Source: a bacterium (GTDB taxonomy: Bacteria > Chloroflexota > Chloroflexia > Chloroflexales > Kallotenuaceae). Taken from it: a stretch of DNA of 58,490 nt. Below, piece after piece: positions 18,392-19,225 of the stretch. The stretch is from assembly GCA_016781525.1 (NCBI GenBank), contig JADDQE010000202.1:1-58490 (forward strand), given 5' to 3'. Under the pieces are notes generated by a model that was not told the origin of the DNA, made no database searches, and worked only from the letters and a program-made list of their open reading frames with translations. Position 1 is the first letter of the stretch. Every line of letters begins with the position of its first letter. Position numbers and translations under genes: made by a program.

Positions 18392-18434
18392 TAGTGCCAC
18401 GCCGGAGTGGTGAAATGGCAGACACGGGGGACTT

Positions 18435-19146
18435 AGGGTGTTTGAGCACGCTGGACGGAAACGCTAGCGTGAATGGAGTCAAAGTCGGTGAAACCTACAC
18501 AGGTAATGCTGTTGGCAACGCCGAGCTAAGGCTAGGTTTAGAAATCTGCGATTGTTTGGAAGTGGTCTGTGGAAGTATGCGAAAACGAACTTACACAGAT
18601 GAGCAGCTGATCGACGCAGTTCAAACATCTACCTCGATTCGTCAAGTTCTCGGACGGCTTGGGCTCGTTGAAGCGGGAGGAAATTATTCGATTATCAAAC
18701 GACGTATTCTGAGAATGGGTCTAGATACGGCACACTTTACTGGTCAGGGGTGGAGGAAGGGCGATAGTAACGCTGTTACCATAGCGAAGCCTCTATCCGA
18801 GCTTCTTAGACAAGGTTCAAGCTTTCAAAGCTACAAGCTGAAAAAGCGACTTTTTGCAGAAGCGCTGAAAAAACCAAAGTGTGAAGGCTGTCTTAATGTT
18901 GAATGGCAAGGACAACCGATACCGCTTGAGCTAGACCATATCAATGGAGATCCGACTGATAACCGAATCGAAAATCTGCGGATACTGTGTCCAAATTGTC
19001 ATGCGTTAACTGCGACATATCGAGGTAAAAAGCTAGCAAAGTGTAGAGACGAGACGGCTCCCTCCTAAACGTCATCTATGACGCATGGAGAAGGCATCGT
19101 CCAGACCACAAACTGCCTTGCAGGTAGCGAAAGCTATAGTGGTACG
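18435..19146 (+). ncRNA. Group I intron in tRNA-Leu(UAA), with encoded HNH gene
   Basis: A 712-nt self-splicing-type intron. It follows an exonic U and ends in G (19146), as group I introns do. Core segments match the cyanobacterial tRNA-Leu intron as I remember it: TTTGAGC guide region (18441-18447), P-like GTCGGTGAAACCT (18484-18496), Q-like GGCAACGCCGAGCTAAGGC (18514-18532), R-like GTGTAGAGACGAGACGG (19041-19057), P8 hairpin CGTCA/TGACG (19070-19083), S-like AAGGCATCGTCCA (19091-19103) and the GNRA-capped P9 hairpin TAGC-GAAA-GCTA (19125-19136). P6 GCTAG/CTAGC (18531-18535, 19033-19037) brackets the endonuclease gene. It is most like subgroup IC3. Confidence 0.9.
18577..19068 (+). CDS. HNH homing-endonuclease-like protein inside the intron
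   Basis: A 163-aa protein with an N-terminal helix-turn-helix-like part (TDEQLIDAVQTSTSIRQVLGRLG) and a C-terminal HNH domain. The zinc knuckle cysteines are C102/C105 and C138/C141, the metal-site residues are D120-H121 and H142, with N133 between them (LELDHINGD, LRILCPNCH). It could cut intronless tRNA-Leu genes and so spread the intron; that activity is inferred. ATG 18577 follows GGAAG; longer in-frame starts would read through the tRNA exon and are rejected. Its codons are more AT-rich than those of neighbours, and its last codons overlap the intron's R/P7 region. Confidence 0.9.
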   Translation: MRKRTYTDEQLIDAVQTSTSIRQVLGRLGLVEAGGNYSIIKRRILRMGLDTAHFTGQGWRKGDSNAVTIAKPLSELLRQGSSFQSYKLKKRLFAEALKKPKCEGCLNVEWQGQPIPLELDHINGDPTDNRIENLRILCPNCHALTATYRGKKLAKCRDETAPS

Positions 19147-19198
19147 AAAATCCCCTCCTCGCAAGGGGGTGCGGGTTCGAGTCCCGCCTCCGGCACCA

Positions 19199-19225
19199 AC
19201 GCGCTGCAATCGCAGCGCGTTTTTG
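19199..19225 (+). terminator. Terminator of the tRNA-Leu gene
   Basis: Perfect 9-bp arms ACGCGCTGC (19199-19207) and GCAGCGCGT (19212-19220), loop AATC, followed by TTTT. It starts immediately after the CCA end. Confidence 0.92.

Follow-up and report, generated by a model that had tools for sequence, protein, structure and literature searches.

The present analysis revealed that positions 18401-19198 of the window (the whole 58,490-nt stretch of DNA that was analyzed) are a tRNA-Leu(UAA) gene interrupted at U34|A35 by a 712-nt group I intron (18435-19146), whose P6 loop carries an intact HNH endonuclease gene (Table 1). It is likely that these parts form a composite mobile element, associating an IC3-like intron inserted at U34|A35 and a P6-borne homing endonuclease from an HNH family that targets tRNA-Leu. 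The comparison with related loci further suggests, as a probable but less assured extension, that this HNH homing family is dedicated to tRNA-Leu genes in phages and many phyla, where it is found beside intact or split genes or in introns, and that it merged several times with the tRNA-Leu(UAA) intron (in P6 in sense orientation, in P6 in antisense orientation and upstream of P3). The element of the window would be one of these mergers, with an empty site in the same genus.

The split tRNA-Leu(UAA) gene and its ribozyme

Exons 18401-18434 and 19147-19198 together make up an 86-nt tRNA-Leu with the anticodon UAA and an encoded CCA (predicted exon-exon junction after ligation, CTTAAAATC), as an earlier reading of the DNA (the sequence-only reading) had proposed from the removal of 18435-19146. 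ARAGORN with its intron option on reports a tRNA-Leu(taa) with a 712-nt intron at this locus and, without this option, no tRNA in the window. Furthermore, G849, a genome of the same genus, carries an uninterrupted tRNA-Leu(UAA) gene (L198), all 86 nt of which match the joined exons, in collinear flanks that include the same two neighbor genes and a similar terminator. The intron boundaries are thus exact. A second, intact tRNA-Leu(UAA) gene, which the sequence-only reading had named as evidence against itself, was not found in the host genome, an 86%-complete assembly in which absence is unproven, so that the split gene is the only tRNA detected for the leucine codon UUA; the other tRNA-Leu genes of this genome have the anticodons CAG, CAA and UAG. 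The tRNA-Ser(UGA), tRNA-Phe and tRNA-Ala labels given by ARAGORN to several split tRNAs elsewhere were rejected, since their boundaries are misplaced and all these genes re-splice to tRNA-Leu(UAA).

Table 1. Features of the interrupted tRNA-Leu(UAA) locus (positions of the window)
Feature	Position	Strand	Basis
5′ exon of tRNA-Leu(UAA), last base U34	18401..18434	+	ARAGORN with introns; identity to the intact G849/L198 tRNA
Group I intron, 712 nt, terminal G (omega-G) at 19146	18435..19146	+	ARAGORN, covariation, covariance model; absent from the orthologous loci of G849 and G851
Internal guide sequence UUUGAG	18441..18446	+	Read from sequence; proposed by analogy with the cyanobacterial intron
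P2 hairpin (18447-18452 with 18466-18471)	18447..18471	+	Sequence; hairpin also formed, by other pairs, in G150 and in the Acidobacteria intron
P3 5′ strand GGAGTC (partner 19056-19061)	18475..18480	+	Two-sided changes in 6/6 pairs, 100% paired
P4-P5 (P4, 18485-18490 with 18519-18524); P and Q elements	18485..18524	+	P4 100% paired, two-sided changes in 3 pairs
P6 5′ strand (CU..GCUAG)	18526..18535	+	Outer P6 pairs covary; inner GCUAG/CUAGC from sequence
HNH endonuclease ORF, 163 aa, in the P6 loop	18577..19068	+	Pfam, PHROG, conserved residues; start codon aligned with the Acidobacteria homologue; dN/dS about 0.11-0.14
P6 3′ strand CUAGC..AG	19033..19041	+	Sequence; covariation count
P7 5′ strand GACGA (R element; partner 19097-19101)	19048..19052	+	P7 98.9% paired, two-sided changes
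P3 3′ strand GGCTCC	19056..19061	+	Covariation count
P8 hairpin	19062..19090	+	Outer four pairs 98.6% paired
P7 3′ strand UCGUC (S element)	19097..19101	+	Covariation count
P9.0 (CCAC/GUGG) and P9 region (CUGC/GCAG; AGCGAAAGCU hairpin, GNRA-type loop)	19106..19142	+	Sequence; conserved in G150 and G848
3′ exon of tRNA-Leu(UAA), including the encoded CCA	19147..19198	+	ARAGORN with introns; identity to the congener tRNA
Likely intrinsic terminator, GC hairpin and T run	19201..19224	+	Sequence; same layout in congener L198

The same locus was compared in the six searchable genomes of the family. Besides the empty site of G849, the orthologous site of G851, also from the same genus, is intron-less. 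An ORF-less intron occupies the site in G150, a member of another genus that is collinear with the window over ~12 kb, and an ORF-less 225-nt intron interrupts the tRNA-Leu(UAA) gene of G848, from the same family, among different flanking genes; G850 (80% complete) gave no match for the locus. Therefore, both the presence of the intron and its HNH content vary within a single family, and the insertion that the sequence-only reading had suggested looking for in other Chloroflexota does exist there.

According to the pairings read from the sequence, the GAG of the guide sequence pairs with the CUU of the 5′ exon to form P1, U34 and G18444 being the splice-site wobble, and its UUU pairs with the AAA of the 3′ exon to form P10. 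The U18434-G18444 pair at the 5′ splice site and G19146 at the 3′ end, boundaries that are backed by the intron-less orthologue, assign the element to group I introns, and its insertion between U34 and A35 assigns it to the tRNA-Leu(UAA) intron family. The core is conserved: after alignment of the core of the window with those of 17 other introns (18 in total), several of which pass Rfam RF00028, the pairs of the named structure are formed in 96.2% of cells compared to 30-47% in slid controls, and 100 cells show two-sided changes compared to a shuffled mean of 34, such changes being found in 17 of the 27 core pairs. P7 is GACGA/UCGUC here versus GACUC/GAGUC in cyanobacteria.

RF00028 matches neither the intron of the window nor the compact intron of G150, while it is passed by co-aligned introns (58.6 bits for L118 and 62.2 bits for the second intron of L004). 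We read the miss on the window intron as a sensitivity limit, the threshold being a detection criterion and not a defining one. Our own covariance model, which draws on 13 introns from lineages outside the family of the window, matches the window on either side of the ORF (51.7 bits, E = 1.6e-10, and 39.8 bits, E = 1.1e-7) as well as the ORF-less introns of G848 (83.6 bits) and G150 (79.2 bits). Hence, the hallmarks of a tRNA-Leu intron (P, Q, R, S and P8) announced by the sequence-only reading are borne out for the P3, P4, P6, P7 and P8 core by covariation and covariance hits. The group I covariance search to which it had tied this assignment failed with Rfam and succeeded with our model in both halves of the intron; since the Rfam model misses the lineage of this intron, taking the lack of a hit as decisive would have misfired. 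It should also be emphasized that genomes can seem devoid of tRNA-Leu(UAA), since such genes are missed by RF00028 and by intron-blind tRNA scans. Overall, the structure points to an IC3-like group I intron that is predicted to be self-splicing.

Other split tRNA genes and tRNA-like loci were also observed. Group I introns split tRNA-fMet(CAU) genes in the Chloroflexota loci L118, L158, L159, L169, L171 and L172, and we take the ORFs in those of L118, L171 and L172 to resemble I-Ssp6803I-type nucleases. The 605-635-nt group I introns of L154 (Chloroflexota G011) and of L004 (minus strand, 2029-2739) re-splice to tRNA-Ile(CAU), labeled tRNA-Leu(CAA) by ARAGORN; in the Acidobacteria MAG, this tRNA-Ile(CAU) locus adjoins the split tRNA-Leu. 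In Chloroflexota, compact introns of ~206-214 nt (L145-L147 and L149), in tRNAs called Asn or Thr by ARAGORN, form their own clade (100/100). A cluster of tRNA-like genes with a related short insert at different points (~45-60 nt, core CGAGGTGn(3-9)GGGGTTCCTTCG) is present in three genomes of the genus: G000 (contig C186, L136 1640-2360, minus strand), G849 (C129, L317) and G851 (C182, L318). Ordinary ARAGORN found no tRNA in the G000 cluster, and its contig looks chromosomal. Lastly, L138 (G000, contig C33) shows two tRNA-like repeats (ggtgtcgtctaatatggtaa...gaaggttcga) ~1.3 kb apart, which are possibly tRNA-derived elements.

The HNH gene and its relatives in bacteria and phages

The presence of an HNH gene in P6 was confirmed: its 163-aa ORF is intact, has an ATG start that coincides in the alignment with that of the closest homologue, exceeds the Pfam HNH_3 cut-off (30.1 bits for 24.8), matches PHROG 10822 (E = 2e-49) and keeps the HNH motif and the zinc cysteines. 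Its final ~12 codons overlap the 3′ strand of P6, R, the 3′ strand of P3 and the start of P8. Once the ORF is removed, the remaining P6 resembles that of G150, which places the insertion between 18535 and 19033. Comparison with the Acidobacteria homologue (dN 0.21-0.23, dS 1.5-2.0) indicates purifying selection on the ORF, although dS is near saturation. The predicted structure (pLDDT 83, pTM 0.53) shows helices in its N-terminal part and the HNH fold in its C-terminal part, and no convincing relative was found among solved structures, by sequence or by fold.

The closest HNH gene (71% protein identity) occupies the same P6 position in a tRNA-Leu(UAA) intron of an Acidobacteria MAG, on a 7-kb contig of low coverage (L004) that could be mis-binned. 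Among 82 bacterial HNH loci, 24 are borne by tRNA-Leu(UAA) introns, while 44 lie no more than 120 nt away from an intact tRNA-Leu gene and are mostly flush with it, these counts being inflated by identical or same-genus loci (many of the free-standing ones come from the genus Pseudonocardia). The insertion points and strands of intronic genes vary: the HNH gene is antisense in the P6 of G318 (L184), intact in P6 in G028 (L185) but reduced to a remnant (CPNCHSLTDNYRGSKKK) in P6 in G248 (L167) from the same genus, and located between the 5′ splice site and P3 in tRNA-Leu(UAA) introns of Bacteroidales.

The free-standing form was detected in at least six phyla. In many loci, its 3′ end is flush with or overlaps the 5′ end of the intact tRNA-Leu gene; the two genes are convergent in two Myxococcota loci and in G161. 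The neighbor is tRNA-Leu(UAG) in Pseudonocardia, tRNA-Leu(CAA) in Bdellovibrio and an alphaproteobacterium, and tRNA-Leu(UAA) in the Chloroflexota G225 and G329. Intron calls made by ARAGORN in Pseudonocardia were rejected, the tRNA-Leu(UAG) gene being intact there with the HNH gene just upstream. In L183 (G225), an apparent tRNA-Leu 5′ half precedes the free-standing HNH gene, which is followed by a complete tRNA-Leu(UAA) gene, a layout that looks as if the gene had entered the tRNA and restored it. This apparent duplication of the tRNA 5′ half ahead of the HNH gene was not retained as a general rule for free-standing members, since it was seen by eye in L183 and not in others.

Relatives of the HNH gene are rare, being present in 7 of the 350 genomes from the phylum of the window, 1 of the 247 from the phylum of the Acidobacteria MAG and 2 of the 194 from cyanobacteria, in neither of the latter within an intron; none was found in the fetched cyanobacterial tRNA-Leu intron loci. 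The contrast drawn by the sequence-only reading with cyanobacterial tRNA-Leu introns, which it described as normally lacking a protein gene, therefore holds for this HNH family in these genomes.

In viruses, a tRNA-Leu gene lies within 60 nt of the HNH gene in 42 of 80 loci and any other tRNA gene in 2, many of these 80 loci sitting in mixed tRNA arrays. Our covariance model found a group I core in 28 of the 80. In most of these 28, an intron of ~200 nt splits tRNA-Leu(UAA), and the start of the HNH gene lies tens of nt beyond the tRNA; in six, the gene is inside the intron. According to a 2014 review, all phage group I introns known at that time were in protein genes (PMC3984707); in a search of the open-access literature, we found no later report of phage group I introns outside protein genes. 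The phage HNH endonucleases of PHROG 10822 belong to the same family as the protein of the window over nearly its whole length, but this group is annotated as HNH endonuclease only, with no tie to tRNA-Leu.

Since the HNH lineage is also found free-standing beside intact tRNA-Leu genes, it would already have been aimed at the host gene of the ribozyme, and the locations of its members suggest that the family probably targeted tRNA-Leu genes before entering introns. A cleavage site common to all members is no more than possible, since the free-standing genes lie at the end of the tRNA and not at the intron site, and often beside tRNA-Leu(UAG) or (CAA) and not (UAA).

Proposed mobility and origin of the element

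In the proposed mechanism, the precursor tRNA would fold, the guide sequence of the intron pairing with the CUU of the 5′ exon; a guanosine bound in P7 would attack and ligation of the exons would yield a functional tRNA-Leu(UAA). At the DNA level, the HNH protein would recognize the anticodon-arm region of a tRNA-Leu(UAA) gene that lacks the intron, for instance the one of G849, and would cleave or nick this gene. With the intron-bearing copy as the template for repair, both the intron and the HNH gene would then be inserted, the presumed direction of transfer being from the interrupted gene to the empty one. The HNH gene itself would derive from the lineage that also exists as free-standing genes abutting intact tRNA-Leu genes, and such genes would have moved into tRNA-Leu introns several times.

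Our trees rest on 144-155 columns and their deep nodes have modest support. The core tree, with 144 columns, gathers the cyanobacterial tRNA-Leu introns into a clade (100/100) that leaves out the intron of the window; the latter groups with the HNH-bearing Acidobacteria intron and not with the ORF-less introns of its own family (84/72), and its core identity is 88% to the former and 82-86% to the latter. The AU test does not reject a tree in which all Leu introns form one clade (p = 0.27). The HNH tree brings together the genes of the window, the Acidobacteria MAG and G318 (98/81), and intron-borne and free-standing members are intermixed (L054, labeled free-standing in this tree, is actually intron-borne). 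The best tree places the intron of the window with those of Chloroflexota and Acidobacteriota, in a branch distinct from that of the cyanobacterial tRNA-Leu introns. The sequence-only reading had hesitated between a lateral transfer and an unreported branch, to be decided by a tree with cyanobacterial tRNA-Leu introns. The grouping with family members and the Acidobacteria MAG, outside the cyanobacterial clade, lends more support to the branch and less to a transfer from cyanobacteria.

Other explanations of the locus were weighed. The HNH gene might be a passenger that no longer homes, or a helper of splicing. Two other genera of the family do possess introns of the same type that are devoid of HNH gene, so that the intron may be old in this family and have been lost in G849 and G851. 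However, the ORF is intact, with a dN/dS of about 0.11-0.14 and its HNH and zinc residues kept, the core groups with the HNH-bearing Acidobacteria intron and not with the ORF-less ones of the family (at 84/72 only), and the cores of ORF-less relatives are equally complete; we therefore consider a passenger or helper role unlikely. That a cyanobacterium or a plastid recently donated the tRNA-Leu intron by lateral transfer appears very improbable, even though the U34|A35 site is the same, the core is similar and its identity to a cyanobacterial intron reaches ~75%: the separate clade formed by all cyanobacterial tRNA-Leu introns speaks against a recent cyanobacterial donor, the sequence identity to these introns does not exceed that to tRNA-fMet or tRNA-Ile introns, and P7 shows compensatory differences. 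The window comes from an assembly of 263 contigs that is 86% complete, and an assembly artefact or a MAG chimera could in principle have put an intron into an intact tRNA gene. This is scarcely credible given that the splice boundaries are exact and the ribozyme core is continuous with the exons, that an ORF-less intron of the same type occupies the collinear locus of the 4-contig genome G150, and that the independent contig L004 carries the same kind of HNH intron.

Relation to known introns and significance

The proposed composite element and the cyanobacterial tRNA-Leu(UAA) intron have in common the tRNA, the U34|A35 site, the P3-P8 core, the terminal G and the CUU/GAG P1. Unlike the fetched cyanobacterial copies, the intron of the window carries an HNH gene; in the best tree, it also branches apart from them, P3, P6 and P7 showing covarying changes, and its host is likely a member of Chloroflexota (Chloroflexales), which fits the host proposed by the sequence-only reading. 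It resembles the cyanobacterial tRNA-fMet intron with I-Ssp6803I, in that both are group I introns of the anticodon loop of a bacterial tRNA associated with a (here putative) homing endonuclease, but the tRNAs differ and I-Ssp6803I is a PD-(D/E)XK nuclease unrelated to the HNH enzyme. Outside cyanobacteria, anticodon-loop IC3 introns occur in tRNA-Ile(CAU) of Azoarcus and tRNA-Arg(CCU) of Agrobacterium, which are other tRNAs than the tRNA-Leu of the window; the described ones are not known to carry an ORF. Our search of the open-access literature found no earlier paper on ORF-bearing tRNA-Leu introns or on tRNA introns in Chloroflexota or Bacteroidota.

How introns acquire homing endonucleases is a long-standing question, and fusion on a common target is one of the proposed routes. 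In the collaborative homing of phages, an ORF-less intron and an endonuclease that is encoded separately come to share one conserved target before they fuse (PMC3984707). This was described in phage protein genes, whereas the target would here be a tRNA gene, with intermediates across several phyla and phages. For one essential tRNA gene, every step was found: the empty gene, the intron alone, the endonuclease gene beside the intact gene, beside the split gene, within the intron at several positions and, finally, decayed. This work also extends the range of tRNA-Leu introns to a likely member of Chloroflexota, an Acidobacteria MAG, Bacteroidota and phages, and the tRNA-Leu loci provide a natural series for studying the assembly of mobile introns.
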